Shown one piece after another: positions 1,677-36,186 of a DNA stretch of 42,282 nucleotides. The stretch comes from Candidatus Zhuqueibacterota bacterium. GTDB lineage: Bacteria > Zhuqueibacterota > QNDG01 > JABMRT01. Position numbers and translations under genes: made by a program. The stretch is from contig JABMRT010000191.1 in assembly GCA_013202295.1 (NCBI GenBank), forward strand, positions 1 to 42,282, given 5' to 3'. A model generated the notes under the pieces. The model was not told the DNA's origin and ran no database searches. It saw only the letters and a program-made list of their open reading frames with translations. Each line of letters begins with the position of its first letter. Within the stretch, counting starts at the first letter, position 1.

Positions 1677-4073
1677 TTATCCCATCACAACATGTACAAC
1701 ATTCTCATCTTGCATCATTGAATTGGAAATGAGATTGCCCTGAATCTTCTCACCATTCAGGACAACTTCCTTCACACCCTTTTCCACATGGTTTGGATTC
1801 TCAACAGTGACCTCGAATTTCTTACCTCGGAATTTACGGGTAACTGTGAATCCGGACCAGTCAGCCGGGATACAGGGATCTAAGCTCAACCCATTGTATT
1901 CGGGTTGAATTCCGAGAATGTGCTGACCAATCGCGAAATAAGTCCAGGTTGCGGAGCCTGATAACCACGGAATACGTGATGCTCCGTGCTTCGGACTGAA
2001 CTTCGCATATGTGGATTGGCACACCACATAAGGCTCAATCTCGCGGATCTCAGCTTTTTGATTGTACGCAGCAGGAAGATAGGATCGAAGATATTCGTAC
2101 GCACGCGTGCCGTGTCCCAGCATCGCTTCAGCTATGACCGCCCATCCCTGTGTGTGAACAAAGATGCCGCCATTCTCTTTCTGTCCAGGATTCATAAGCG
2201 CAGCGCGAACAATATTATAATCCGTTTCAGTATAGGGTGGATCGCAGAGCGCCAATCCATATTCTGTCGCTAAATGTTGTTTCACACCATCCATGGCTGA
2301 CTTCGCCTGCGCTTCGGATGCAGCGCCACTCATCACAGCCCAAGTTTGTGAGTTCAGAAAAATCTTGCCTTCCGGGCTTTCTTTGGAACCGAATTTCATT
2401 CCATCATATCGATAGCCACGCATGAACCATTCACCATCCCAGGCGTGTTTCTGGAGATTCTCATCTAATTTTTGGAGGAGCGGTTCCGCCCACTTCTTGG
2501 CATCGGAATCGCTCAATAGATCCGCGATTTCGAGATACACCTTAAACGCGAGTCGGAGCTGCAAAGCCACAAAAACCGATTCTCCCGTTTGACCGAAACG
2601 CAGACAATCATTCCAATCTGCCCTGAGTCCGCAGGGCAAACCATGTTGACCCAGCCGGTCTAGACTGAATTGGATGGCTCGTTTCATATGGTCGAAAATG
2701 GTGTCCTCGTCTGAGTCGGAATATGGAAGAACCTTTTTATAAAATTCAATATCACCCGTTTCTTTCACATACGCGGGGATGGTATTAAAGAGCCACAGCG
2801 CGTCATCAGAACGATAGTCCTCTTCAGCCGGTTTGGGCTCATGACCAGGCACATGCCCGAATGGCATAACCACCGGCATGGCGCCGCCCGTGGACACCTG
2901 GCCTGTGATCATCAGTTCAAGCCGCTCCTTGGCTTCATCCGGGATGGTGTGAAGTACGCCCAGAAAATCTTGTACTGTGTCACGGTAGCCTAATCCATCG
3001 CGATCAATACCGGAATAAATCAAACTCGCAGCGCGTGACCATGCGAATGTAATCAGCGCGTTATAAATCCCCCACGTGTTGATCGTACTGTTTAATTCTT
3101 CATCCGGCGTTTGCGCGGATAATCCTTCCAGCCGGCCATGCCAGTAGGATTTGACTTTCTCCAGTTCCTCATCCGCTTTCTGGATATTCTGGAATTCTTT
3201 GGCCGCCTCACGTCCCTGCACATCCGCTTTGCCCACACCCATAAGAACTAGGAAATCTTTGGATTCACCGGGCTGAAGTGTCAACTCCACCTGTAAAGTA
3301 CCGCAGGGATTGTCGCCATACGCGAGTGATCTGAAGCATTGCCCTTTCTCTACAGCAATGGGATTGGCGTAGGTTCTATACGGCCCTAAAAAGGCTTCAC
3401 GATCCGTATCGTATCCGATCACCTTCGCGCCCACGATGACCTGGAAACTATGCCGTCCCTGATCCTTCTCCTTAAAATTATCGGGCATTTCAGGGATATA
3501 GACATTGGTACCGTGATCGATCATATTATCCACGATGGACATTTGCGGGGTGTATTGCACGTATTGGATGTTTAGCAAATCATCGATTGCGTTCCAGGAG
3601 CCGACCAATTCAACATAGGTGAAGGCGCTGAGTTTGCGCGGCTTGGAATCCGTATTGGTCACGCGAACCTTCCAGATTTCGAACAGCTTGCCCATAGGCA
3701 CAAAATAGGTGACGTCGGATTTGATGCCTGAATACTCGGATTCAATCGTCGTGTATCCTGTGCCGTGATGACAGGTGGATTTAAAATCATCCAGGGATTT
3801 CCCAACCGGTTGCCATGAGGCGGACCAGAAGTCTTTGGAATCGTGATCGTGGAAATAGATATACCGTCCCGGCTGATCCATGGGGATGGAATTAAAGCGC
3901 ATGCGCATGTAGCGCCCCATGCCCCCGGACTTCCAGAAACTGTACCCCCCCGCATTGTTCGTAATGATCGCCCCATATTCCGTGGAGCCCAGATAGTTGG
4001 ACCAGGACTTCGGTGTGTCGGGACGCGTGATCACATACTCTTTTTTTTCATCGTCAAAATGACCGTATTGCAT
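1677..4073 (-). CDS. GH94 glycoside phosphorylase, paralog A
   Basis: At 798 residues this matches the normal length of cellobiose/chitobiose phosphorylases and it is cytoplasmic (no signal peptide). The N-terminal beta-sandwich begins with the family opening FDDEKKEYVITRPDTP. The (alpha/alpha)6 barrel carries GLGYRDTVQDFLG and RADWNDC, whose second Asp is the general acid in this family. GH94 enzymes reversibly phosphorolyse beta-linked disaccharides to a sugar 1-phosphate plus the reducing-end sugar. It is clearly closer to paralog B (5684-8077) than to the chitobiose phosphorylase at 33787-36186: both share NNAGGYSF, STGGAMPVV and HTQGW. Substrate is unassigned; cellobiose- or cellobionate-type beta-glucosides are candidates. 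It is separated from the symporter gene by a hairpin and a palindromic repeat, so its expression may be reduced or independent. AAGGA precedes the ATG. Confidence 0.9.
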   Translation of the reverse strand: MQYGHFDDEKKEYVITRPDTPKSWSNYLGSTEYGAIITNNAGGYSFWKSGGMGRYMRMRFNSIPMDQPGRYIYFHDHDSKDFWSASWQPVGKSLDDFKSTCHHGTGYTTIESEYSGIKSDVTYFVPMGKLFEIWKVRVTNTDSKPRKLSAFTYVELVGSWNAIDDLLNIQYVQYTPQMSIVDNMIDHGTNVYIPEMPDNFKEKDQGRHSFQVIVGAKVIGYDTDREAFLGPYRTYANPIAVEKGQCFRSLAYGDNPCGTLQVELTLQPGESKDFLVLMGVGKADVQGREAAKEFQNIQKADEELEKVKSYWHGRLEGLSAQTPDEELNSTINTWGIYNALITFAWSRAASLIYSGIDRDGLGYRDTVQDFLGVLHTIPDEAKERLELMITGQVSTGGAMPVVMPFGHVPGHEPKPAEEDYRSDDALWLFNTIPAYVKETGDIEFYKKVLPYSDSDEDTIFDHMKRAIQFSLDRLGQHGLPCGLRADWNDCLRFGQTGESVFVALQLRLAFKVYLEIADLLSDSDAKKWAEPLLQKLDENLQKHAWDGEWFMRGYRYDGMKFGSKESPEGKIFLNSQTWAVMSGAASEAQAKSAMDGVKQHLATEYGLALCDPPYTETDYNIVRAALMNPGQKENGGIFVHTQGWAVIAEAMLGHGTRAYEYLRSYLPAAYNQKAEIREIEPYVVCQSTYAKFSPKHGASRIPWLSGSATWTYFAIGQHILGIQPEYNGLSLDPCIPADWSGFTVTRKFRGKKFEVTVENPNHVEKGVKEVVLNGEKIQGNLISNSMMQDENVVHVVMG

Positions 4074-5683: not shown

Positions 5684-8077
5684 CTATCCTAATAACACTT
5701 TAACAGTGTTGGATGATTCCATTAATTCCACAGGGATGAGCTGTCCCTCAATTTTATTGCCATTGAGGATGATCTCCTTCACCCCTCGATTCATACCATT
5801 TGGATTTTGAATTGTGATATCCAACATCTTACCACGAAACCGTCTGCTGATCGAAAAATCCGACCAATCCTTCGGTATGCAGGGATCGATCAAAAGTCCA
5901 TTATATTCGGGTCGAATACCGAGTATGTATTGGGTTGCTGCGAAATAGGACCATGTGGCTGATCCTGAAAGCCATGGCAGACGGGACGCTCCGAAACGCG
6001 GGCTATACTTCGAATGTGTGGATTGACAATTCACATACGGCTCAATCCCTCGAATTTCGGCCTTTGTATTCATGGCCGATGGCATGGATGCCCGTAAATA
6101 TTCAAACGCCCGATCGCCACGCCCGAGCATGGCCTCAGCAATTACAACCCATCCCTGCGTGTGACAGAAAATCGCACCGTTTTCTTTCATGCCTTTATTA
6201 AATAGAGTGGACTTGATGATGGCCAAATCCGTTTTTTCGTAAGGAGGATCAAGGATCATCAAGCCGTATTCCGTGGCCAATCGATCGTGAACCACATCCA
6301 TGACAGCTTCCCCTTTTTCATCCTGGATCAACCCACTCAATACCGCCCATGATTGAGGATTGAGCCACACGTCGCCCTCATCGACTTCTGCAGTACCGAA
6401 AATAAATCCATCCTCGCGAATCGCTCTGCGGAACCAGCGTCCATCCCATGCGTGCTCATTCAAATTTATATCGAGGGTTTTGAGATGTTCAGCCGCCCAG
6501 GTGGATTCTTCAGAATTCTTTAGAAAGTCACAAATTTCAATATAGGTTCTTAAGGCGTACCGGAGCTGGAGGGCCACGAAGATGGTCTCGCCGTTAAAAC
6601 CGAGCTGAAGGCAATCGTTCCAGTCCGCGAGAAGTCCGCATGGAAATCCGTGACTACCGGATCGGTCGAGAGAAAACTGGATGGCTCTTTTTAAATGGCC
6701 AAGAACCGTATCCTCACCTTCATCAGCGTACGGAAGTACCTTCTTATAAAATTCAACATCGCCGGTTTCTTTCACGTAAGCCGGGACCGTATTAAACAGC
6801 CAGTAGCAATCATCCGATCGGTATTCGGATTCTTCGGGTTTCTTCTCTTTTCCCGGTTCATGTAATATTGGCTTCACAACCGGCATGGCCCCACCCGTTG
6901 AAACCTGGCCCGTAATCATCAGTTCGAGCCGTTCCCCCGCCTCTTCTGGTATGGTATGGAGCACACCCAGTAAATCTTGGACAGTGTCGCGGTATCCCAA
7001 TCCGTCTCGTGCTCCGGCATATACCAAACTCGCGGCACGGGACCATGAATAGGTGATCAAGCTGTTGTACGGGCTCCACATGTTCATCATACTATCAAAT
7101 TCGGGATCAGGTGTGGAGGCAGTCATGCCCTGAATTCTGGTGTGCCAATGTGATTTCACCTTCTCAAGTTCAAATTGGATTTTGGAGAGATCCTTGAATT
7201 CCTGCGCCGCAGCTTTGCCTTCCACGTCAGCTGTACCAATGCCCATGAGCACAACCACTTCGCGGGATTCACCAGACGCCAGTTCCAGATCAGCCTGGAA
7301 CACTCCGCAGCCATTGTCTCCCGAAGCAAGGGAGCCGGTGCATTTGCCTTCTTCCACGACAAGAGGATTTCCATATCCTCGGTACGGGCCGATAAAGGAT
7401 TCACGATCCGTGTCAAAACCGGTAATTTCAGCGCCAACCATCGTAATAAACGAATGCCTGGACTGGGGATCGGCATTGAAATCACCATGCACCGTCGGCA
7501 GCAGTGGATTGATCGCTGCATCAATCACTCCGTCTACTTCGGTCATTTGAAGGATATACTGGGAATACTGCAGATTGAGCCAGTCCTGCCACAGCTCCCA
7601 AAAATTGGAGAACTCCACGAAATTGAACAGCGAAAGTTCACGGGGCTTGGAATCCTGATTTGTGATTTTGAGATGCCAGCATTCAAACGCGCGGCCAAGT
7701 GGTACAAAGTAGGTCGCTTCAGATCGGATTTGGTTATAATCGGATTCAATGACCGTATAGGCCGTACCATGACGGCAGGTGGTCTTGTACTCAGAGAGTG
7801 GCTTGCCAACCGGCTGCCACGATGCAGACCAGTAATCTTTACTTTCACGGTCACGGAGGTAAAAGTACCGGCCTGGTTGATCCATGGGCAAAGTATTCGC
7901 ACGCCAACGTATGAAGCGCCCCTGCGCCGCGGAATGCATAAAACTATATCCACCCGCATTGTTTGTGATAATAGCGCCGTACGTCGTATCACCCAAATAA
8001 TTGGACCACGATCGAGGTGTATCTGGCCTGTCAATTACATATTCTTTGTTCTTATCGTCGAAAAAACCAAATTGCAT
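5684..8077 (-). CDS. GH94 glycoside phosphorylase, paralog B
   Basis: This 797-residue cytoplasmic protein has the same domain order as paralog A: beta-sandwich from residue 1 (FFDDKNKEYVIDRPDTP), linker helices, (alpha/alpha)6 barrel with GLGYRDTVQDLLG and ADWNDC, and a C-terminal sheet domain. The general-acid Asp of WND is kept, but the residue before ADWNDC is Leu where paralog A and the chitobiose phosphorylase here have Arg. Relative to paralog A it also lacks a short insertion just before GLGYRD. These differences suggest a different acceptor preference. It is the first gene of the minus-strand unit, preceded by AGGAA and a promoter/operator at 8183-8230. The substrate is not determined. 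Confidence 0.9.
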   Translation of the reverse strand: MQFGFFDDKNKEYVIDRPDTPRSWSNYLGDTTYGAIITNNAGGYSFMHSAAQGRFIRWRANTLPMDQPGRYFYLRDRESKDYWSASWQPVGKPLSEYKTTCRHGTAYTVIESDYNQIRSEATYFVPLGRAFECWHLKITNQDSKPRELSLFNFVEFSNFWELWQDWLNLQYSQYILQMTEVDGVIDAAINPLLPTVHGDFNADPQSRHSFITMVGAEITGFDTDRESFIGPYRGYGNPLVVEEGKCTGSLASGDNGCGVFQADLELASGESREVVVLMGIGTADVEGKAAAQEFKDLSKIQFELEKVKSHWHTRIQGMTASTPDPEFDSMMNMWSPYNSLITYSWSRAASLVYAGARDGLGYRDTVQDLLGVLHTIPEEAGERLELMITGQVSTGGAMPVVKPILHEPGKEKKPEESEYRSDDCYWLFNTVPAYVKETGDVEFYKKVLPYADEGEDTVLGHLKRAIQFSLDRSGSHGFPCGLLADWNDCLQLGFNGETIFVALQLRYALRTYIEICDFLKNSEESTWAAEHLKTLDINLNEHAWDGRWFRRAIREDGFIFGTAEVDEGDVWLNPQSWAVLSGLIQDEKGEAVMDVVHDRLATEYGLMILDPPYEKTDLAIIKSTLFNKGMKENGAIFCHTQGWVVIAEAMLGRGDRAFEYLRASMPSAMNTKAEIRGIEPYVNCQSTHSKYSPRFGASRLPWLSGSATWSYFAATQYILGIRPEYNGLLIDPCIPKDWSDFSISRRFRGKMLDITIQNPNGMNRGVKEIILNGNKIEGQLIPVELMESSNTVKVLLG

Positions 8078-13511: not shown

Positions 13512-14606
13512 TTAGGGTTCCCAGACACGAATTTTGCTGAGTTGGTCACTTCCATACGTGAAAGCAATGCCCGTATCATAAACCTCTTCGTCGCCATCCA
13601 CAGAGTCAGGTTCTCCAAATACAGCTACAATTTCATCGCGTGTGCTGCCAAGTCCGATTTCGACATCCCCGACATTGTCAATCAAACCATCATAAGGTAC
13701 TTCAAGAGTGACCTGGTCACAGGGCACATTGGGATAAAGTACCAGTTGCCTTGATGGGAAGAATACCTTAAGGCCAATCCATGAATATCCAATCATATGA
13801 ATTCCGGCTTCAAGAGAATCATTAATAGTATAAGATCTTAGATCATGCTGTCCATAATGATCAAGAACTTCCTGATAAATGTCACCGATCATCACATGTG
13901 CGGCTTCTTCACCCGAAAATACTTCTACTTCGCGTTGAAATGAAAGACTCACCGTGACATCCACATTACCGCCATTGGACTCAATCAAAATTACACCTGT
14001 ATAATCGCCATAATCCATTCCCCAGGGACGGGCTTCCACATGTAATGTATCCGGCTCATCCAGAATGCCTACTGAATCACCTGGGATAACGATCCAGTCA
14101 GGCATCGAAGTAATTTCATATCTCAGAGAATCGGTTCCATGATTATATAGAATAAGATCTTCAACCAAACCATTGCGGTCGAAATAAAGGATTTCCTGAT
14201 TGACATCAAGTTCAGCGGGTTGATTATTTAATGTCACTGCAATATCCACATCTCCACCATTCGATTCAATGCTAATGGTTCCGGAGTATTCACCATGCGC
14301 AACAACGGACCGATCAAACGAAATCTCGAGACGTTCCCAACCCCTATTCGCAAGCACACTTGCCAATTGTGAGAGCTTCACCCATTCAGGCTTGGAAGTA
14401 ACTGACCAGGAAAGATTGTCTTCTCCATCATTTCTGAGCGTAACTACATCATATACTTTTCCCGGCCCAAGATTAACAGATGTTTTTGAAATGATCAGTT
14501 CAGCATCAGAGGGAGGATCAGGTGTGACGGGTGTATCGTTATTTTTACAACCACCCACAAGCAAAAGTGCAAAAAGCACTGTCAACATCAAATCTTTTTT
14601 TCTCAT
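13512..14606 (-). CDS. Lipoprotein with two BACON-like repeats and a BamE/SmpA-like tail
   Basis: A lipoprotein signal ends in LLLVGGC, so the protein is lipid-anchored on the outer or inner membrane. Two ~95-residue beta-sandwich repeats follow, each with Leu-Asn-Trp/Tyr-type cores and matching ends (ESNGGDVDIAVTL and ESNGGNVDVTVSL). This pattern is typical of BACON or related Ig-like domains, which often bind mucin or carbohydrate. The last ~130 residues contain GLGSTRDEIVAVFGEPDSV and a closing strand, resembling SmpA/OmlA (BamE) domains, though distantly. It is monocistronic: promoter at 14716-14744, AGGAAA before the ATG, terminator at 13458-13491. The function is unknown; surface binding is the inference. 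Confidence 0.75.
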   Translation of the reverse strand: MRKKDLMLTVLFALLLVGGCKNNDTPVTPDPPSDAELIISKTSVNLGPGKVYDVVTLRNDGEDNLSWSVTSKPEWVKLSQLASVLANRGWERLEISFDRSVVAHGEYSGTISIESNGGDVDIAVTLNNQPAELDVNQEILYFDRNGLVEDLILYNHGTDSLRYEITSMPDWIVIPGDSVGILDEPDTLHVEARPWGMDYGDYTGVILIESNGGNVDVTVSLSFQREVEVFSGEEAAHVMIGDIYQEVLDHYGQHDLRSYTINDSLEAGIHMIGYSWIGLKVFFPSRQLVLYPNVPCDQVTLEVPYDGLIDNVGDVEIGLGSTRDEIVAVFGEPDSVDGDEEVYDTGIAFTYGSDQLSKIRVWEP

Positions 14607-14843: not shown

Positions 14844-16400
14844 TTAATTAAATGTTTTACCAAGAAAGATGACCGAATAAAGAATCCATCCTACAGCCAG
14901 CGGACAGACAAACCTGAGAAGAAAACGCCAGATCCCCAATCCGATAAACGATCCATGGCCGGTTTCGACTTCTTTTTTAATGAAGGATTTCTTTAACACC
15001 CAACCGGTAAAAATGGCAATCAGGATTCCACCGATGGGCAGGAACCAATTGGTGGCGAGATAATCCATCGTATTGAATACACCCGTGACTGTATCCTGGG
15101 GCCACTCACCTTGATTGATTATCCCGTCCTGATCTGCATCCAGCTGATTGATTGACGCAGGTTCCAGCCATTTATTTTGAATATCTGGCTCTGCTTGAGT
15201 GATTTCATTAAGTGAAAGCATCTGATTGTCATCAAGATCGATTTGAGTAAAAACCTGGGCGGCATTACTAAAGGGCGTCCATCCACTTAGTTTTTTAATC
15301 GAGCCCAATGAGAGCGCCGAGAGAATCCCGAAAAGGAATACCAACAGGCCCACAACCAGCGTTGCACGTAGTCGCGGCCAGTTCAAATGATCAATAAAAT
15401 AGGAAACCACCACTTCAAGCAAAGAAATGGTTGAGGTCAACGCGGCAAATCCCACGAGCAGAAAAAAGAGTGGTGCGAGAATCGCCCCCCCGGGGAGCTG
15501 ATAGAACATCTGGGGAATCGTGGTAAACAACATGCCCGTGCTTGCGAATTCCTCGGGCCATGCACTCTCACCCAGCGATGAAAACACAATTGAAAACATG
15601 ATGACACTCGCCATGACAGCAATGAGTGTATCCATCAGTACGATGATTCCGGCAGCACGAGGAATCGATTCTTTTGTGGACATATAACTGCCATACGTAA
15701 TAATGGCGCCCATGCCCAGGCTCAGCGTAAAGAACGCATGGCCCACGGCTTCAAGCACACTTTCAGGCCGTATTGGCCCGGGGGTGAAAAGAAAACGAAT
15801 CGCGCGTCCGAAACCCGGTGTAAAAAACGAATTGACTAATAAAACGATGAGGATTAAAAGCAGAAGGGGCATCAGGATTTTTGTAAGCCGTTCAATCCCG
15901 CTTTTCACACCGAAAACAACCACGGATACGGAAAAGAGTGTAAAGAGTGCGTGGTAGAGGATCTGCAAAGATCCATTGCCAAGAAATGTGATAAATTGGG
16001 GAGACATCGCCTGAGCCGTCTCAGGCGAAAATCCATTGATTGACCAGCCAAGAGATTGGATGAAATAATGAACAGTCCAGCCGGCAACCACATTATAATA
16101 TGAGAGGATGACAAATCCGGTACCGATGCCGAGCCACCCGACAAGACTCCAGGCTGGATGATTGAGTTCAAGAAACGCACATACCGGACTTTTTTGCGTG
16201 GATCGTCCAATGACAATCTCGGCCATCATGATGGGAGCGCCTACCAAAAGAATGGTGACAAGATAAATAAGGACAAACGATCCGCCCTGATTATCATAGG
16301 TGATATATGAGAACTTCCAGAGATTGCCCAGACCAATGGCTGAACCAGCAGAGGCTAAGATAAATCCGATACGGCTAAAATGTCCCCGATGAGCATCCAT
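14844..16400 (-). CDS. Neurotransmitter:sodium symporter (NSS) with EF-hand pair in EL5
   Basis: This is a LeuT/MhsT-fold transporter in the inner membrane using Na+ to import an amino acid or related compound. The unwound TM1 motif GSAIGLGNLWKF and the TM8 segment ALTSTIS are present, and I count 11 membrane helices. Between TM9 (ending ILSALSLG) and TM10 (LATNWFLPIGG) lies an unusual ~75-residue insertion with two canonical EF-hand loops: DLDDNQMLSLNE (residues 388-399) and DADQDGIINQGE (421-432). By LeuT topology this is the extracytoplasmic loop EL5. The frame opens at 16427, but ATG 16400, with GAGG upstream at long spacing, gives the normal NSS start; this choice is uncertain. The substrate is unknown. 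Confidence 0.92.
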   Translation of the reverse strand: MDAHRGHFSRIGFILASAGSAIGLGNLWKFSYITYDNQGGSFVLIYLVTILLVGAPIMMAEIVIGRSTQKSPVCAFLELNHPAWSLVGWLGIGTGFVILSYYNVVAGWTVHYFIQSLGWSINGFSPETAQAMSPQFITFLGNGSLQILYHALFTLFSVSVVVFGVKSGIERLTKILMPLLLLILIVLLVNSFFTPGFGRAIRFLFTPGPIRPESVLEAVGHAFFTLSLGMGAIITYGSYMSTKESIPRAAGIIVLMDTLIAVMASVIMFSIVFSSLGESAWPEEFASTGMLFTTIPQMFYQLPGGAILAPLFFLLVGFAALTSTISLLEVVVSYFIDHLNWPRLRATLVVGLLVFLFGILSALSLGSIKKLSGWTPFSNAAQVFTQIDLDDNQMLSLNEITQAEPDIQNKWLEPASINQLDADQDGIINQGEWPQDTVTGVFNTMDYLATNWFLPIGGILIAIFTGWVLKKSFIKKEVETGHGSFIGLGIWRFLLRFVCPLAVGWILYSVIFLGKTFN

Positions 16401-16483
16401 TGGGTTATCGAACCTCTTCATATTCAACGAATGTGATAATGGTATTATCTGGGTGAATGGAAATTACTAAACCAATTCCCATC

Positions 16484-16873
16484 CTATTTGGATTTGCCAA
16501 TAAGCTGATCAATCTGCTCGAGAATATCGCTGGGCGAATTGGCACCTTTGATTTTATAGAAATTGGCTCCAAGATCGAGCGCTTTCTGTACATCTTTATC
16601 CGCGCCCATAACTGAAAAAATGATCACGGGAATGTTTTTTGTCTGTTCATCTTCTCGAACTTTTCGCAGCACATCATATCCGCTCAATTCCGGAAGAATA
16701 AGGTCGAGTAAAACCAGATCCGGTTTTTTCTCTTTGATCATTGCCCATCCTGTGGCCCCATCCCCGGCCTCGATCACTTCGAATCCGGCATTCTCCAATA
16801 CTCCCCGATAAATGAGGCGAAAAACCTGTTCGTCTTCAATAATTAACACAGTACCATCATAGATTCGATCCAT
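16484..16873 (-). CDS. Single-domain response regulator (CheY-like)
   Basis: This 129-residue stand-alone receiver domain has the acidic pair at IIEDEQ, the phospho-acceptor Asp in LLDLILPE, the Ser switch residue in IIFSVMG, and a Lys in FYKIKGA near the position of the conserved Lys. It has no output domain, so it likely acts by protein contact or as a phosphorelay intermediate. AGGAG overlaps the end of the upstream hybrid kinase gene, with a 9-bp gap. This is translationally linked expression, and that kinase is its probable partner. Confidence 0.9.
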   Translation of the reverse strand: MDRIYDGTVLIIEDEQVFRLIYRGVLENAGFEVIEAGDGATGWAMIKEKKPDLVLLDLILPELSGYDVLRKVREDEQTKNIPVIIFSVMGADKDVQKALDLGANFYKIKGANSPSDILEQIDQLIGKSK

Positions 16874-16882
16874 TGCGAGCTC

Positions 16883-18355
16883 CTATTTCTTTTTACTCTT
16901 TTCACCCAAAGGCAGACTGAAGCAGAATGTGCTGCCCTGATTAAATTTTGAGGAGACAGTGATATCTCCCTCCATCAACTTCATGAATTCTTTGGCAATG
17001 TATAAACCCAATCCACAGCCACCCTTTGAAGAAGGCGCACCTGTGAAAATTTGATCCTTCGTAAACAATTTCTGTATGTTCTGCTTCATAATACCGCTCC
17101 CTGTATCTTTCACTTGAACTATTGCAGAACCGTTTTGAGTTTGTGTGGATATATGTATCGATCCCTTGTCTGTGAATTTAAGTGCATTGTGGATGATATT
17201 GCTCAGAGCTTCAATGTATTTATCGTGATCTGCCGAAACAAAAATGGGATTCTCCGGGATATCAACTATCAATTCGAGATCTCTGTCTATGGCATTTTGT
17301 TCGAATGGTTTAGCGGCGTCCTGCAGCATTTCACCCAGATTGACCTCCGCGATTTCAACCGAGATAATCCCCCGCTCGATTCTGGAAATATTTAGCAAAT
17401 CAGAAATAATTCTGTAATTTCTCTGATTAATTTCTTCCATTGCATGGAGATATTCGAGCTGCTTGTCTGTCAAATCTCCGGTCAGACCTGCCAGCATATT
17501 GTCAATACATCCCATCACAGCAGCGATGGGTGTTTTAAGCTGATGGGAGACGAGAGAGACGAAATCGCTTTTCATTTGTTCAATGCGTTTTCGTTCAGTG
17601 ATATCTCTTGCAATGATCGTAAAGAAAACATCTTCTTTAATTTCCCAAGTGGTGAGCGTGTACTCCATGGGAAACTCAGACCCGTTTTTATGCCAGCCAA
17701 AACTTTCAATCGTTTTTCCGATGATTTCAGATTCACCTGTCAGGATGAAACGGTTAATTTCATTCTCAAAGTCGAGCCGTAATCGTTCGGGCACAATAAA
17801 GCTGAAAGGTTTCCCAGCGATCTCTTCGTTTGGATACCCGAACAGATCTTCAACCGCTTGATTGCAGAAAGCGATATTGCTCTGACCATCAATGGTTAAA
17901 ATAGCCTCAGTAGCAGTATCGATCACAAATCGATATTTTTGCTCGGATTCACGCAACTGTCTTTCAAGTTTCATGCGATATAGCGCGAACTCGATCGTGG
18001 CTTTCAGTTCATGCTCCTGGAACGGTTTTACAACAAATCCATAAGGATCTACATTTTTCGCGCGGTCAATAATCTTTTCACCACCATAGGCGGTAATGAA
18101 AATCACAGGAATATCACATTCCTTCCGGATCTCGCCGGCTGCTGTAATACCGTCCATGCGATCCTTACCTGGCATCATAATATCCATCAAAATCAGATCA
18201 GGACGATGCGATTTGGCCAGTTGCACAGCTTCTTCACCGGACGAAGCAACAGCGACGACCTCATACCCCATTGAATTTAAGAATTCTTCCAACTGATTGG
18301 TGATAATAACCTCATCATCAACCAGCATCAATTTTGCTTTCTGTTGTTCTCCCAT
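16883..18355 (-). CDS. Soluble hybrid sensor kinase: REC-PAS-HisKA-HATPase
   Basis: The domain order is an N-terminal receiver (about residues 7-120, Asp in LILMDIMMPG, Lys in VVKPFQ), a PAS domain with PAC tail (about 130-255, IARDITERK), a dimerisation/phospho-acceptor helix with His in VSHQLKTPI, and an ATPase domain with N-box (NIIHNALKFTDKG), DTGSGI and GLGLYIAKE. It has no membrane segments, so it is cytoplasmic and sees a signal through PAS or through phosphorylation of its own receiver. The frame could start at GTG 18370; ATG 18355 with AAGGA close upstream is also good and is chosen. It forms an operon with the response regulator at 16484-16873 and sits between two NSS transporter genes. 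Confidence 0.92.
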   Translation of the reverse strand: MGEQQKAKLMLVDDEVIITNQLEEFLNSMGYEVVAVASSGEEAVQLAKSHRPDLILMDIMMPGKDRMDGITAAGEIRKECDIPVIFITAYGGEKIIDRAKNVDPYGFVVKPFQEHELKATIEFALYRMKLERQLRESEQKYRFVIDTATEAILTIDGQSNIAFCNQAVEDLFGYPNEEIAGKPFSFIVPERLRLDFENEINRFILTGESEIIGKTIESFGWHKNGSEFPMEYTLTTWEIKEDVFFTIIARDITERKRIEQMKSDFVSLVSHQLKTPIAAVMGCIDNMLAGLTGDLTDKQLEYLHAMEEINQRNYRIISDLLNISRIERGIISVEIAEVNLGEMLQDAAKPFEQNAIDRDLELIVDIPENPIFVSADHDKYIEALSNIIHNALKFTDKGSIHISTQTQNGSAIVQVKDTGSGIMKQNIQKLFTKDQIFTGAPSSKGGCGLGLYIAKEFMKLMEGDITVSSKFNQGSTFCFSLPLGEKSKKK

Positions 18356-18516
18356 AATCCTTCGATTCACCTTCTATAAATTAATCTAAACTTAATGATT
18401 AAAGTGAAATGAAGCAACAATATTTATATGATATACTCGATGATTCGGCTTCACTCATTCAAACATCTGAATATCTTCACATACTGGATTCCAAATCATC
18501 AATTTGTCAATTACTT

Positions 18517-18633
18517 TTATTTTTTAATGAAATCCGTCGGACGGTTTTTCATGGCAATCACAAGACAAATTGCCAAACCGCCATAAAGAATCAGGCAGCC
18601 GAAGGTCATCATCAGCCATGCAGACAGGGGCAT
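18517..18633 (-). CDS. MetS-like small subunit of an NSS transporter (38 aa)
   Basis: This tiny frame overlaps the stop codon of the NSS gene by one base (TAATG), with AAGGAG six bases before its ATG. The product is a single membrane helix with a short basic tail: SAWLMMTFGCLILYGG followed by LAICLVIAMKNRP. It fits the MetS/MaAIMP family of small subunits needed by NSS amino-acid importers such as the methionine/alanine MetPS system: a hydrophobic helix containing a (W/Y)GG step and ending in Met-Lys. The context makes it the partner of the 18633-20117 transporter. Confidence is high for a real gene and good for the family. Confidence 0.8.
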   Translation of the reverse strand: MPLSAWLMMTFGCLILYGGLAICLVIAMKNRPTDFIKK

Positions 18634-20117
18634 TATTTCTCCTTGTTATGGATTGAATCAGTATGACTTGATATTTTATAGAGTATTACAGCGAGCAACA
18701 AAAATATCGCGAGTACACCCCACCCACCAATCCAGGTCGCCCATCTTGGGTATCCCTGATAGCTGCTCTTGAATTCATTGATCAGATTCACGATGAGGAT
18801 CACAGTTAGTATGGCTGGAGTAACATAACGCAAAGCCCAAATCCACCAGACACCCAGCTTGACCTCAGAAATCTCATTCAGATAGACACGAAAATCCTGA
18901 ACACGATCGAGATATCCCACAATGAGACATTGCCCCAAACCGGCCGCGACCAGTCCGAAATCACAAATCCATTTATCAATAATGTCAAACCAGTAAAATC
19001 CACCCTTGGTTATAAATATTAGTGAGATCGGAAAGGCAATCGCGACAAACACAAATGCCAGCTTCCCCGGGGATTGATTCCATTTATCACGCACTCCTGT
19101 GGTAAAAGCTTCTTGAAGAGCGAATGCGGAATCAATGCCTAACGTCAGCAGGGTGACAAAGAAAATGATTCCGAAAAAGCTATTTAGAGCGGGCAATTGC
19201 GAGATTGCAATCGGAAAAGCCACAAAGGCCAAACCGGTCCCGCTGGCAGTGACTTCAGGAACAGGCACACCCTGAACACGCGCGAGATACCCCAGCATGG
19301 AAAAGACCACAAAACCGGCGAAAAAGCTGATCCCGCAATTCGCCAATCCGGTAATCAGAGCGCTATTTGTGATCTCGGCTCTTTTTCCTAAATAGGATCC
19401 ATATCCTATCATGACACCAGAGGCCAGGCTTAATGAGAAAAAGATCTGCCCGTAAGCACGCAGCCAAATTGCAGGAGAAGCCAACATTTTGAAATCAGGT
19501 GTGAGATAATAGCGAATCCCATCGAGAGCGCCCGGCAATGTGAGCCCTCGAATTAAAAGAACAACAAGCAGAATGAGAGGTAGAGGGACCGTAATGAAAA
19601 CAACTTTACTTACGTTTCGAACGCCTTTGCGCAGGATGAGAAACACGGTCGCCCATGTCAACGCCATACCGATTACGAGATACCAGAGAGGCGTACCGAG
19701 TTCCGCCGGGCCGGATGACCGCTGAAGAATGGTATTGATAAAAAAGGATTCAGCCTGATCTCCCCAGCCTGAATGAACGGCATGCCATAAATACACCCAT
19801 GACCATGCCAGTATGGTACTATAATAAATCACGATGCCGGCGCTGAGACCCACCGTCCACCATCCGAAGAGTTCAAGTTTGGGCCGGATCGCACCAAAAG
19901 CCCCGGGTGCCCCGCGTTGCATGCGCTGTCCCAGTCCCATTTCGAGAATCAACATGGGAATACCGGCAGTAAACAGAGCTATGAAATAAGGGATCAGAAA
20001 CGCGCCCCCGCCGCTTTGATAGGCTACATAGGGAAAACGCCAGACGTTCCCCAATCCAACCGCAGAGCCAATCGCCGCCATAATAAAAGCTGTTCTACTG
20101 TGCCACCGTTCACGCAT
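18633..20117 (-). CDS. Neurotransmitter:sodium symporter (NSS), second copy
   Basis: This 494-residue LeuT-fold amino-acid symporter opens with the TM1 sodium/substrate motif GSAVGLGNVWRFPY. TM6 is in FFSLSLASGVMIGYGSY and TM8 in LTLGIDSAFALQEA. It has twelve predicted helices, the last one (GGWGVLAIFLLLAVILYK) near the C-terminus. Unlike the 14844 paralog it has no insertion between TM9 and TM10. It is followed in overlap by a MetS-like small subunit, which suggests a methionine/alanine-type importer, although the substrate cannot be read from the sequence. AGGA lies upstream of the ATG. Confidence 0.92.
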   Translation of the reverse strand: MRERWHSRTAFIMAAIGSAVGLGNVWRFPYVAYQSGGGAFLIPYFIALFTAGIPMLILEMGLGQRMQRGAPGAFGAIRPKLELFGWWTVGLSAGIVIYYSTILAWSWVYLWHAVHSGWGDQAESFFINTILQRSSGPAELGTPLWYLVIGMALTWATVFLILRKGVRNVSKVVFITVPLPLILLVVLLIRGLTLPGALDGIRYYLTPDFKMLASPAIWLRAYGQIFFSLSLASGVMIGYGSYLGKRAEITNSALITGLANCGISFFAGFVVFSMLGYLARVQGVPVPEVTASGTGLAFVAFPIAISQLPALNSFFGIIFFVTLLTLGIDSAFALQEAFTTGVRDKWNQSPGKLAFVFVAIAFPISLIFITKGGFYWFDIIDKWICDFGLVAAGLGQCLIVGYLDRVQDFRVYLNEISEVKLGVWWIWALRYVTPAILTVILIVNLINEFKSSYQGYPRWATWIGGWGVLAIFLLLAVILYKISSHTDSIHNKEK

Positions 20118-22735: not shown

Positions 22736-25660
22736 ATGAAGTATCGAAGCATTCTTTTCGTGCATCTGTTTTCAATTTTAATGATCATCCCATGTTATTT
22801 ATACGCAGCTACTAAGGCGAGCATCGAAGGGAATATCACAGACACCACAACCGGACAGGCTCTGCCCGGCGCAAATGTTTTTCTTGCCGGCACCAGCATA
22901 GGCACTGCGACAAACTTAAATGGAAAATTCAGTCTTACGAACATCCCGCCGGGTGAATATACATTGCACGTTAAATATATTGGATATCAAGCCATTGAGA
23001 TTCCCATTCAATTGCAAACCGGAGAATCGCTTATAAAGAATATCGAACTGGAATCGGTGGTTCTTCAAGGCCAAGAAGTCGGTATAACCGTTCAGGCAGA
23101 GGGTCAGAACGAAGCCATCAACAGACAGTTGACATCACGTTCAATTATAGAGGTAGTATCTTCGGCCCGTATTCGGGAATTGCCGGATGCGACTGCAGCA
23201 GAATCAGTGGCAAGATTACCTGGGGTATCCCTTTCAAGAGAAGGTGGTGAAGGTACAAAAGTCGTTATTCGAGGAATGAGTTCTGAACATAATAAGGTAA
23301 ATATTGAAGGAATAGAAATAGCCTCAACCGATAGGGATAATCGCAGTGTAGATATCAGTATGATTTCACCCTATATGCTAGAGAGTATTGAAGTTCAAAA
23401 AGCAGTTACTGCTGATCACGATGGCGATGCCATGGGGGGAACTGTAAATTTTATCATAAGAGAAGCATCGCCGGAGTGGGATTTTGATGTTATAGCTCAG
23501 GAAGTGCATAATGGTTTAAGGAATACTTATGAAGATTACAAATTGGTTGGTAGTATTGATAACAGGTTTTTTAATGATTTATTTGGGGTGTTTTTACAGG
23601 TAGATGTTGAAAACAGAACCCGTGACTCTGAAACCCTTACTGCTGAATATCAGCTTCCTAAACCCAAATTGAATCAGGATAATATTACTTATGTAAATAA
23701 TGTTTTATTGGAAGATATATATAGAGATAAAAAACGTCTTGGTGGCGCAGTGGTACTGGATTACAGATTACCGACTACACATATTAAATCTGTCAATTTT
23801 TTGAGTAAAATCGATACAGATGTTGACACCTATTCAGAGCTGTGTGATGCTGAGGGAGCGTTTCAAGGTCACAGGTCTTCTTTTAGAGAAGAGAATATAT
23901 CTCTCTTAACCAATAGTATTCATGTAACTCAAAATTTTCCGAATGCAAAATTATTTTTAAGGGCATCACGTGCTGAATCGGTTAATGATGTTCCTAATGA
24001 TGCTTTCTGGAATTTTCGAAATAACTCTGGTCTGGAAGCGGGTTTCAATGTACAAACTTCGCCACAGGATCTTTTTCGTTATGCCAGAAATGATACGGCT
24101 GCAGAGTTTTTAAGGATGATCGATTGGAATAGTCATAGAAATGAAGAAACGATTTGGGAATACAAAACAGATTTCGAATACGACTATGCTTTTTCTAAAC
24201 AAGTTGCTGGAAAACTTAAAATCGGTGGAAAATACAAAGAAAAGACTCGGTCTTATGACCATAATAGTACATTTATCGATGCATACCTGGAGAGCACCAA
24301 AGGGGCCAGAAATGCCATTATCGATTATCTTGGTCTGTCTCTTCCACATGATGTCAGGGAATTGCCCCTTTTGTATTTTATGGACGACAGTTACGATAAT
24401 GACAATTACTTGAATGGCGATTTCAGTATGGGGCCCTTTCCTGATACCGATATGTTAAGAGAAGTTATCCATATGATCAGTAATTCGTTATTCCCTGCTA
24501 GCGTGTACAGTGGAGGAGAAATCGTCCCTGATGCTGTTGAGTCCATAAGGCATGATTATTCTGGAAATGAGTATTATAGTGGTGCATATATCATGACTGA
24601 TATGAAGATCGGGGAAAAAATTGAATTTAATCCTGGTTTGAGATATGAACACAATGTGACCAAGTATACAGGTATTCGGGGTGATATTACAACAGGAGGA
24701 ACTCCAGACAGAGAATGGACAGTCTGGCACGATACCACCCTAAGTAGGTCAAATGATTTCTGGCTTCCGATGATCCATTTGAAAGTTAAACCAACTGGTT
24801 GGCTTGATATTCATCTGGCCTATACCGAATCGATTTCCAGACCTGATTACACTTCAATCATCCCATCGTATCTAATCAATAGAACCACTATTGATGACTA
24901 TGGGAACATCGGGCTGAAACCATCCCACTCAGAAAATATCGACCTTCAATTTTCAATTCACAGCAATGAAATTGGTTTGCTGACTCTTGGTGGTTTTCAT
25001 AAGACCATTTATAACCAGATATTTGCCACCGGAGGAAGAGTGGTTCCTGACTCAGCGGCTGCCTATGAGTATCCAGGGTTGGAAGAGTATCAATGGGATA
25101 ATGTCATTGGGAGCAAGATCTATACGTATGTCAATAATCCGAACAAAGGAACGGTCTGGGGGCTGGAATTTGGATGGCAGACGCATTTCTGGTATTTGCC
25201 AAGTTTCCTAAAGGGATTGGTATTTAATGGAAATTATACACATATCTTCTCTGAAACCAAATATCCAAGAACAACAATTGAATTTGATTATACTACATTT
25301 CAACAGACCAACAACGACACTTCGTATACGGCCCGATTTATCAATCAGCCCAAAGATATTGTGAATCTGGCATTCGGGTATGATTACAAAGGTTTCTCAG
25401 GTCGTATTTCCATGCTGTATCAATCCAATGTCTTTGCAGAGAATGATTTTTGGCCGGAATTAAGAGCAACCACGGCTGAGTATATTCGATGGGATATTTC
25501 TATCAAACAGCAATTGCCAGTTAAAAATTTAGATTTCACATTGAATTTTGTGAACTTAAATGCTGAAATTGATAAGAATATTAATCAAAGTACAGGAAAT
25601 CCGACCTTAAGAGAAAACTACGGTCGCAACATAATTGCAGGATTGCGTTATACATTTTAG
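22736..25660 (+). CDS. TonB-dependent receptor, chitooligosaccharide uptake (inferred)
   Basis: This 974-residue outer-membrane receptor has a signal peptide (about residues 1-24) and a carboxypeptidase-regulatory-like beta domain (about 28-110; IEGNITDTTTGQALPGANV, then LNGKFSLTNIPPGEY). The plug (about 130-245) has ELPDATAAESVARLPGVS, VVIRGM and GGTVNFI, then a 22-strand barrel ends in the aromatic terminus RYTF. It resembles the Xanthomonas/Caulobacter-type receptors used for plant and chitin glycans. It is the first gene of a seven-gene plus-strand operon with chitinase and chitobiose phosphorylase, so chitooligosaccharides are the inferred cargo. There is no SusD partner; a secreted beta-helix protein occupies that position. 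Confidence 0.92.
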   Translation: MKYRSILFVHLFSILMIIPCYLYAATKASIEGNITDTTTGQALPGANVFLAGTSIGTATNLNGKFSLTNIPPGEYTLHVKYIGYQAIEIPIQLQTGESLIKNIELESVVLQGQEVGITVQAEGQNEAINRQLTSRSIIEVVSSARIRELPDATAAESVARLPGVSLSREGGEGTKVVIRGMSSEHNKVNIEGIEIASTDRDNRSVDISMISPYMLESIEVQKAVTADHDGDAMGGTVNFIIREASPEWDFDVIAQEVHNGLRNTYEDYKLVGSIDNRFFNDLFGVFLQVDVENRTRDSETLTAEYQLPKPKLNQDNITYVNNVLLEDIYRDKKRLGGAVVLDYRLPTTHIKSVNFLSKIDTDVDTYSELCDAEGAFQGHRSSFREENISLLTNSIHVTQNFPNAKLFLRASRAESVNDVPNDAFWNFRNNSGLEAGFNVQTSPQDLFRYARNDTAAEFLRMIDWNSHRNEETIWEYKTDFEYDYAFSKQVAGKLKIGGKYKEKTRSYDHNSTFIDAYLESTKGARNAIIDYLGLSLPHDVRELPLLYFMDDSYDNDNYLNGDFSMGPFPDTDMLREVIHMISNSLFPASVYSGGEIVPDAVESIRHDYSGNEYYSGAYIMTDMKIGEKIEFNPGLRYEHNVTKYTGIRGDITTGGTPDREWTVWHDTTLSRSNDFWLPMIHLKVKPTGWLDIHLAYTESISRPDYTSIIPSYLINRTTIDDYGNIGLKPSHSENIDLQFSIHSNEIGLLTLGGFHKTIYNQIFATGGRVVPDSAAAYEYPGLEEYQWDNVIGSKIYTYVNNPNKGTVWGLEFGWQTHFWYLPSFLKGLVFNGNYTHIFSETKYPRTTIEFDYTTFQQTNNDTSYTARFINQPKDIVNLAFGYDYKGFSGRISMLYQSNVFAENDFWPELRATTAEYIRWDISIKQQLPVKNLDFTLNFVNLNAEIDKNINQSTGNPTLRENYGRNIIAGLRYTF

Positions 25661-33786: not shown

Positions 33787-36186
33787 ATGAAATATGGCTT
33801 CTTTGATAATCATAACCGAGAGTATGTGATTGAACGACCGGATGTCCCTGTTTCCTGGACGAACTATCTCGGTGTGAAGGACCTGTGCACTGTTATTTCG
33901 CATAACGCTGGCGGATATTCTTTCTATAAGTCCACGGAGCACCACCGAATAACCCGCTTCCGGCCAAATGGAGTTCCCTTGGATCGTCCTGGGCATTATG
34001 TCTATATCCGCGATGATGAGACGGGTGAATACTGGTCCATATCCTGGCAACCTGTCGGTATGGATTTTACCAAAGCAAGATATATTTGCCGTCATGGATT
34101 ATCCTACTCAAAATTTCAATGCGATTGCCAGGATATTGAGGCCGAACAACTCATATTTATCCCGGTGAATGACGATGTAGAGCTGTGGGATGTTAAATTA
34201 AAAAACAAATCAAACCGACCCAGAAAGCTGAGTATCTTCAGCTATGTTGAATTTTCCTTTCACCATACAGAAATTGACAACCAGAATTTCCAGATGAGCC
34301 TGTATGCCAGCGGTTCCAATTTTAAAGAAGGCATCATCGAATACGACTTCTTCTACGAACCCTGGACTTATCATTTTTTTGCTTCCAATTTTAATCCGGA
34401 CAGCTACGATTGTGTTCGAGATACGTTTATCGGGAATTACCGAACCGAGTCCAACCCGATCGGTGTGGAGCGTGGTGTGCTGCAAAACAGTGTGGAACTG
34501 GGAGGCAATCAATGCGCATCCCTGCACAAACAAGTGATCCTCAGGCCAGGCGCTGAAGAGCGGTTGGTCTTTATGCTGGGTGTTGGTTCTCGTGAAGAAG
34601 CAGGATATCGTATAAAAGAAAAATATTCGGATCTCAGGAATGTCGATAAAGCCTTTGGCGATTTGAAAAAATACTGGAAACAAAAGACTTCTGTTTTTCA
34701 GTGTAAAACGCCCCACAACGGCTTTGATACCATGATCAATACTTGGACTCTGTACCAGGCTGAAACCTGTGTCGTTTGGTCCCGTTTTGCTTCTTTTATC
34801 GAAGTGGGAGGACGTGTAGGACTCGGTTACCGCGATACAGCACAGGATATCATGGGCGTTCTGCACACCAATCCATCTAAAACTAAAAAGCGCATCATCG
34901 AATTGCTTAAGGGACTTACTCGCATGGGCTACGGCCTGCATCTTTTTGATCCCGAAGTATTTGAGCCGGAAGAGGATAGACTGCCCGGCGTAAAACTGCC
35001 GACCGTTGTTCCCAAACCCAATGCTGAGGATATTGTCCATGGTCTGGAGGATGCATGTTCCGACGACGCGCTCTGGCTGGTGGCCTCTGTGTGCGAATGG
35101 ATTATTGAAAACGGCGAGCTTGAATTTTTCGACCATATGATATCCTATGCCGACGGCGGCGAAGGAACCGTATACGAACATCTTACGAAAATTCTGGATT
35201 TTTCTGCCAGCCATGTGGGTCAGTCCGGTATCTGCCAAGGACTGCGTGCCGACTGGAATGATTGCCTCAATCTGGGCGGCGGCGAAAGTGCCATGGTCTC
35301 TTTTATGCATTACTGGGTTATTAATATATTTTTAGAGTCAGCTATACAATTGGAACGGCAAAAGGATGTTGAAAAATATGCCGAGATGGCCAATAAAGTA
35401 CGAACCGCATGTGAAGAGATGCTCTGGGATGGCGAATGGTATCTAAGAGGCTTCACAAAGGATGGCAGGAAGATCGGCTCCGGGGAAGCTGAGGAAGGAA
35501 AGCTCTTTTTGAATGCACAGAGCTGGGCCGTTTACTCGGGCGTAGCGTCTGAAAAGCGCGGAAAACAAGGCATGGACGCCGTGGATAAACACCTCTATTC
35601 ACCTTTCGGGATTCATCTGCTCTGGCCGGCCTATTCAAAACCGGATGATACGATCGGCTATGTCACCCGCGTCTACAAAGGCATCAAAGAAAATGCCGCC
35701 ATATTCAGTCATCCCAATCCATGGGCTGTGATTGCCGAGTGTAAACTGGGACGTGGCTCAAGAGCCATGAAATTTTATGATGCCATCCTTCCCTATCGTC
35801 AAAATGACATGATCGAAATTCGCCAGTCAGAGCCATACTCATACTGTCAATTTATTATGGGCAAGGACCATACCGCACACGGACGGGCCCGACATCCCTG
35901 GCTTACAGGAACAGCCTCCTGGTTTTATACTGCAGCCACAAAATATATTTTGGGAATTCAACCGACTTACAACGGTTTGCAGATCGATCCGTGTATTCCT
36001 GCAGACTGGTCCGGATTTCAGGTGACTCGGAAATGGCGCGGCGCAGTATACCACATACAGGTCAATAATCCGACAGGTGTGGAAAAAGGAGTGAAATCCA
36101 TCTTCTTAAACGAGCAGGAAATCGAAGGATTGGTCCCGATACAAAAAGCAGGTTCCTTGAATACTGTTGTGGTAGAAATGGGTTAA
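33787..36186 (+). CDS. N,N'-diacetylchitobiose phosphorylase (GH94)
   Basis: At 799 residues this closely matches the Vibrio chitobiose phosphorylase throughout: MKYGFFDNHNREYVIERPDVP, VISHNAGGYSFY, GHYVYIRDDETGEYWSISWQ, the long stretch from TLYQAETCVVWSRFASF to GLGYRDTAQD, and the acid-bearing RADWNDCLNLGGGES. The enzyme cleaves (GlcNAc)2 with phosphate to GlcNAc-1-phosphate and GlcNAc in the cytoplasm, saving an ATP. It is the last gene of the chitin operon, with AAGGA in the end of the permease gene. It belongs to a different branch from the two minus-strand GH94 paralogs, which lack its HPNPW and LNLGGGES variants. This specificity call is the firmest of the three. Confidence 0.95.
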   Translation: MKYGFFDNHNREYVIERPDVPVSWTNYLGVKDLCTVISHNAGGYSFYKSTEHHRITRFRPNGVPLDRPGHYVYIRDDETGEYWSISWQPVGMDFTKARYICRHGLSYSKFQCDCQDIEAEQLIFIPVNDDVELWDVKLKNKSNRPRKLSIFSYVEFSFHHTEIDNQNFQMSLYASGSNFKEGIIEYDFFYEPWTYHFFASNFNPDSYDCVRDTFIGNYRTESNPIGVERGVLQNSVELGGNQCASLHKQVILRPGAEERLVFMLGVGSREEAGYRIKEKYSDLRNVDKAFGDLKKYWKQKTSVFQCKTPHNGFDTMINTWTLYQAETCVVWSRFASFIEVGGRVGLGYRDTAQDIMGVLHTNPSKTKKRIIELLKGLTRMGYGLHLFDPEVFEPEEDRLPGVKLPTVVPKPNAEDIVHGLEDACSDDALWLVASVCEWIIENGELEFFDHMISYADGGEGTVYEHLTKILDFSASHVGQSGICQGLRADWNDCLNLGGGESAMVSFMHYWVINIFLESAIQLERQKDVEKYAEMANKVRTACEEMLWDGEWYLRGFTKDGRKIGSGEAEEGKLFLNAQSWAVYSGVASEKRGKQGMDAVDKHLYSPFGIHLLWPAYSKPDDTIGYVTRVYKGIKENAAIFSHPNPWAVIAECKLGRGSRAMKFYDAILPYRQNDMIEIRQSEPYSYCQFIMGKDHTAHGRARHPWLTGTASWFYTAATKYILGIQPTYNGLQIDPCIPADWSGFQVTRKWRGAVYHIQVNNPTGVEKGVKSIFLNEQEIEGLVPIQKAGSLNTVVVEMG

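Follow-up and report, generated by a model that had tools for sequence, protein, structure and literature searches.

A minus-strand gene of the window (the whole 42,282-nucleotide stretch of DNA analysed here) encodes a protein that is, by sequence and predicted fold, a member of the neurotransmitter:sodium symporter (NSS) family of the MhsT type, and that carries, in the loop joining its ninth and tenth transmembrane (TM) helices, an insert harboring a pair of EF-hand-like loops. The insert is confirmed as a fact of the sequence, its chance of proving functionally interesting is moderate, and it is a genuine oddity that, among the importers examined, is so far confined to a single species. 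The reading that we favor, and to which we give about an even chance of being correct, is that of an MhsT-type symporter to which one lineage has added a periplasmic EF-hand-pair lobe that is normally loaded with Ca2+ and that acts as a structural clamp. An earlier note on this DNA had proposed Ca2+-gated or Ca2+-stabilised uptake; that interpretation is partly supported, in that both the location and the apparent chemistry of the predicted Ca2+ sites fit, whereas its gating part gains no support. The features on which the argument turns are as follows.

14844-16400, minus strand: predicted NSS transporter, MhsT-type; 518 amino acids, 11 predicted TM helices
16314-16316, minus strand: Lys29, aligned with LeuT Arg30, the outer-gate partner of Asp404
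15312-15374, minus strand: TM9, residues 343-363, from the AlphaFold model and the MhsT alignment
15240-15266, minus strand: predicted E-helix of EF-hand 1 (NAAQVFTQI), residues 379-387
15087-15257, minus strand: insert in EL5, net 57 residues (382-438), absent from all examined homologues
15204-15239, minus strand: EF-hand loop 1, DLDDNQMLSLNE, residues 388-399; PS00018 match, Pfam EF-hand_6 sub-threshold
15105-15140, minus strand: EF-hand loop 2, DADQDGIINQGE, canonical, residues 421-432; PS00018 match, Pfam EF-hand_1/5 sub-threshold
14997-15080, minus strand: TM10, residues 441-468, from the MhsT alignment and the AlphaFold model

The open reading frame starts at an ATG (with a TTG at 16427 as an alternative start), and its product matches the Pfam SNF profile (PF00209) with an E-value of 6e-44 and 151 bits, versus a cut-off of 27. 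Comparison with PDB sequences identifies MhsT of Bacillus (Halalkalibacterium) halodurans (PDB 4us3; E 2e-82) as the closest solved structure. The AlphaFold model of the full protein, which was built with 61 aligned sequences (none other of which carries the insert), displays pLDDT values above 90 across 354 residues and a pTM of 0.87, and a Foldseek search of the PDB with that model ranks MhsT first, with a TM-score of 0.91 by target length. The protein shares with MhsT (4us3, 6yu6) the whole TM core, the number of TM helices (11 in the model), the Na+-site motifs, which are intact (GSAIGLGN in TM1, FFTLSLG in TM6 and ALTSTIS in TM8), the gate aspartate of TM10 and the aspartate of the proposed proton site (Asp263 in MhsT, Asp257 here). 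The core is predicted, from its sequence, to be an ordinary Na+/amino-acid symporter of the MhsT type, with uptake as its expected activity. LeuT from Aquifex aeolicus shares the fold, and its outer-gate Asp404 aligns with Asp446 (15063-15065) in TM10, but it has 12 TM helices, no EL5 insert and an arginine (Arg30) where Lys29 is found here; in LeuT those two residues, Asp404 and Arg30, form the outer-gate salt bridge (PMC11886772). A lysine in place of that arginine is also present in the nearest relative and in planctomycete homologues.

The alignment with MhsT pairs residue 369 with MhsT residue 372 and residue 440 with MhsT residue 381, and the insert therefore falls in the TM9-TM10 loop (EL5), which is where the earlier note had located the two EF-hand loops. 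Some 70 residues separate the aligned ends of the two helices, versus about eight in MhsT, which has no EF-hand there. Homology to the MhsT/LeuT topology predicts that EL5 is extracytoplasmic, and the acidic composition of the insert (12 Asp or Glu residues versus one Lys) agrees with that placement; its proposed proximity to the outer gate is likewise upheld by homology, through the equivalence of Asp446 to LeuT Asp404. The insert joins TM10 directly, with TM10 starting at residue 441 and the gate aspartate coming 14 residues after the end of EF-hand loop 2. A TonB-dependent-receptor-like gene (22736-25660, recognized by eye in its translated sequence) lies elsewhere in the window and suggests a Gram-negative envelope, so that ‘outside’ would correspond to the periplasm.

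The two 12-residue loops originally picked out by inspection were recovered at exactly the coordinates given above, and both satisfy the full PROSITE pattern PS00018, with the 12-residue loop followed by a hydrophobic residue 13 (Ile in loop 1, Trp in loop 2). Their ligand positions 1, 3, 5 and 12, which had been described as acidic or Asn, are indeed D/D/N/E in loop 1 and D/D/D/E in loop 2, while loop position 8 is hydrophobic in each (Leu395 and Ile428). The impression that this regularity exceeds chance was borne out by shuffling: when the 62-residue segment was permuted 200,000 times, at least one PS00018 match arose in 0.14% of the permutations and two arose in none, and two matches never arose in 50,000 permutations of the whole protein. 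No other PS00018 match occurs in the six-frame ORFs of at least 100 amino acids in the window. The predicted E-helix that precedes loop 1 places hydrophobic residues at positions -1, -4 and -5 and an alanine at -8; the AlphaFold model forms a helix at residues 378-385, but with pLDDT below 50 from residue 381 on.

Measured against a conventional EF-hand pair (PF13499, PS00018), the insert displays two 12-residue loops, the full ligand pattern and the characteristic loop-to-loop spacing of 33 residues, and it differs in its sub-threshold profile scores, in the glutamine (rather than glycine) at position 6 of loop 1, in flanking stretches that are short and contain prolines (including one in the stretch after loop 1), and in being embedded in a loop of a membrane protein. 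When submitted alone, the insert matches the Pfam profiles EF-hand_6, EF-hand_1, EF-hand_5 and EF-hand_7 with E-values of 3e-4 to 3e-3, all short of the gathering cut-offs (20.7 versus 25 bits for EF-hand_6, the best; 18.4 versus 30 for EF-hand_7, E 0.003), as do the EF-hand matches of the full protein. Among PDB sequences it is closest to the tandem EF-hands of the calcium-dependent protein kinase SK5 (E 0.001), followed by calcineurin B and calmodulin at E 0.2-0.9. In the AlphaFold model of the full protein most of the insert has pLDDT below 50, and when folded alone as a single sequence the insert returned no structure (mean pLDDT 46); because AlphaFold had no homologues of the insert to draw on, these values neither confirm nor refute an EF-hand geometry. 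Since the loop pattern is present, the profile scores lie below threshold and the predicted fold is indecisive, the insert is best described as ‘EF-hand-like’, and its sequence makes a good, if not overwhelming, case for an EF-hand pair. A dockerin, which would be recognized by its profile and by two repeats of about 22 residues with Asp at loop position 12, was considered and rejected, given that no dockerin Pfam match was found and that both loops have Glu at that position.

In the nearest homologue (L005/L042, from the same order and 67% identical), the 57 extra residues (net) are replaced by GDKSK. When the same region was compared across 149 distinct homologous ORFs, it spanned 104 residues in the ORF of the window and 29-55 in the others, one truncated ORF aside. 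The search for EF-hands among NSS relatives that had been suggested at the outset yielded a PS00018 match in none of the approximately 147 distinct homologous ORFs outside the window, and the second NSS of the window (18633-20117) lacks the insert, as had been claimed, and has an ordinary short EL5. A broader survey used the insert plus its flanks as the query and covered about 1,400 genomes in all (82 from the same phylum, nine single genomes, and samples of 299, 343, 396, 80 and 195 genomes from five other phyla). Being mainly sensitive to MhsT-like NSS, such that distant NSS or eukaryotic EF-hand insertions could escape it, this survey returned no second insert-bearing NSS: no NSS match besides the window's own starts before query position 57, and the insert is missing from all matches whose sequences were inspected. 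One further match spans the EF loops only (query positions 18-73) and lies inside a planctomycete open frame of 848 amino acids. No additional copy of the insert was found in the same genome or in the phylum, strict loops of the form D-x-[DN]-x-D-G-x-hydrophobic-x3-E occur only four more times in the genome, and the G+C content of the insert (0.45) lies inside the gene's own range. The simplest reading of its origin is a recent acquisition in one lineage. The arrangement had been described as unfamiliar among characterised NSS proteins, and no EF-hand insert in an NSS, LeuT-type or other secondary transporter was found in the NSS structures or in the literature searched, which covered few subscription journals.

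A group of MhsT-like planctomycete NSS of about 590-600 amino acids (L115-L122), considered as further candidates for an EL5 insert, was rejected because its extra residues lie in the TM3-TM4 loop and contain no EF-hand loop; that insertion (in EL2) comprises about 120 residues, is charged and probably helical, and is present in several planctomycete genomes. Two NSS matches lie in very long frames, of 1700 amino acids (L171, G1245) and 947 amino acids (G1127:C1:2864048), which are possibly fusions or simply long open frames.

Under the favored explanation, one lineage would have gained a small EF-hand-pair lobe in the periplasmic TM9-TM10 loop, and that lobe would probably bind two Ca2+ ions at the usual periplasmic level. 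Once loaded, it would act as a permanent clamp that orders or stiffens both EL5 and TM10 at its outer end, where the outer-gate aspartate lies. A structural role, rather than a switching one, is what we infer for it, because the Ca2+ level of the periplasm normally suffices for such loops to stay occupied. This reading of a loaded, stiffening lobe is argued from its ligand chemistry, its location and published precedents. Calcium loops of the Dx[DN]xDG type are strongly biased to the periplasm or cell surface, and Tk-subtilisin depends on a Ca2+-binding insertion in order to fold (PMC3123361). In the periplasmic lytic transglycosylases Slt35/SltB, which differ from the present case in being enzymes rather than transporters and in having one EF-hand-like loop only, an EF-hand insertion is tied to Ca2+-dependent stability or partner contact (PMC12547810). 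EfhP (PA4107) of Pseudomonas aeruginosa is likewise membrane-bound with two predicted periplasmic EF-hands, but has a single TM anchor and is not a transporter (PMC4053335). The clamp is favored by a PS00018 pair beyond chance, the hydrophobic residues at loop position 8, the E-helix pattern, the sub-threshold EF-hand matches, the clean insertion relative to homologues, and the confident modelling of the flanking helices and core as MhsT; against it stand the failure of AlphaFold to fold the insert, Pfam scores below cut-offs, the Gln at position 6 of loop 1, the proline in the stretch after that loop, and the confinement of the insert to a single sequence, too few to measure selection on the loops.

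The same lobe might instead serve as a switch, with Ca2+ on the EL5 EF-hands altering the tilt of TM10 and hence the closing of the outer gate, so that uptake would depend upon external Ca2+. Ca2+ switches are most commonly built from EF-hand pairs, but EF-hands seldom run short of Ca2+ outside the cell, and gating requires an external Ca2+ concentration that varies through the binding range. The direct junction of the insert with TM10, which bears the equivalent of LeuT Asp404 and tilts toward TM1b upon outer-gate closure, makes such a mechanism attractive, while the assignment of TM10 to the more static scaffold of the fold speaks against it (PMC11886772). The restriction of the insert to a single species also deprives gating of any conservation signal. 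On balance we consider it unlikely; the fuller claim of a Ca2+-sensing bacterial NSS, in which external Ca2+ would exert allosteric control over the outer gate by way of an EL5 EF-hand pair continuous with TM10, is slightly more doubtful still.

Two further readings, both improbable, leave transport itself unaltered or the lobe without function. The insert may be inert or decaying EF-hand DNA in a tolerant loop, binding Ca2+ weakly or not at all, as its presence in one species only, its sub-threshold Pfam scores and its low AlphaFold confidence would allow; yet all of its ligand positions are intact and both loops fit PS00018, which is not to be expected of decaying sequence. With a marginally smaller chance, the lobe may dock a periplasmic partner in a Ca2+-dependent manner while transport is unchanged, for which a precedent exists in the EF-hand loop proposed to mediate periplasmic contact between SltB1 and PBP2 (PMC12547810); no candidate partner has emerged, however, the lipoprotein-like BACON protein (13512-14606) being known only as a neighbour. 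An artefact of assembly or binning, in which unrelated DNA was joined inside the gene, is very improbable: the assembly is a draft of 303 contigs and the insert is found in no second genome, but the reading frame continues across both junctions of the insert, which agrees in G+C content with the gene and sits precisely in the TM9-TM10 loop.

NSS proteins serve as models of the human neurotransmitter transporters. If the lobe does bind Ca2+, it would provide a natural example of a calcium module, stabilising or regulatory, placed at the outer gate of a LeuT-fold transporter, and how far the movement of TM10 and EL5 matters for gating could be tested directly with such a removable, metal-controlled clamp on TM10. 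The insert also indicates that EL5 tolerates a 57-residue domain. At present this case stands on one sequence from one species, an uncultured bacterium.

Directly downstream of the transporter gene, the lipoprotein-like protein mentioned above (minus strand) displays two BACON_2 matches. Between the two NSS genes, and on the same strand as both, a stand-alone receiver-domain protein and a REC-PAS-histidine kinase are encoded at 16484-18370 (minus strand); the neighbourhood of the nearest homologue does not share this gene order. Elsewhere in the window, three similar candidate glycoside phosphorylases of about 800 amino acids were recognized by eye (1677-4073, 5684-8077 and 33787-36186), near genes for MFS-type transporters and for GH18-like and GH20-like proteins (of these calls, GH20 was tested); together they form a possible sugar-use cluster.
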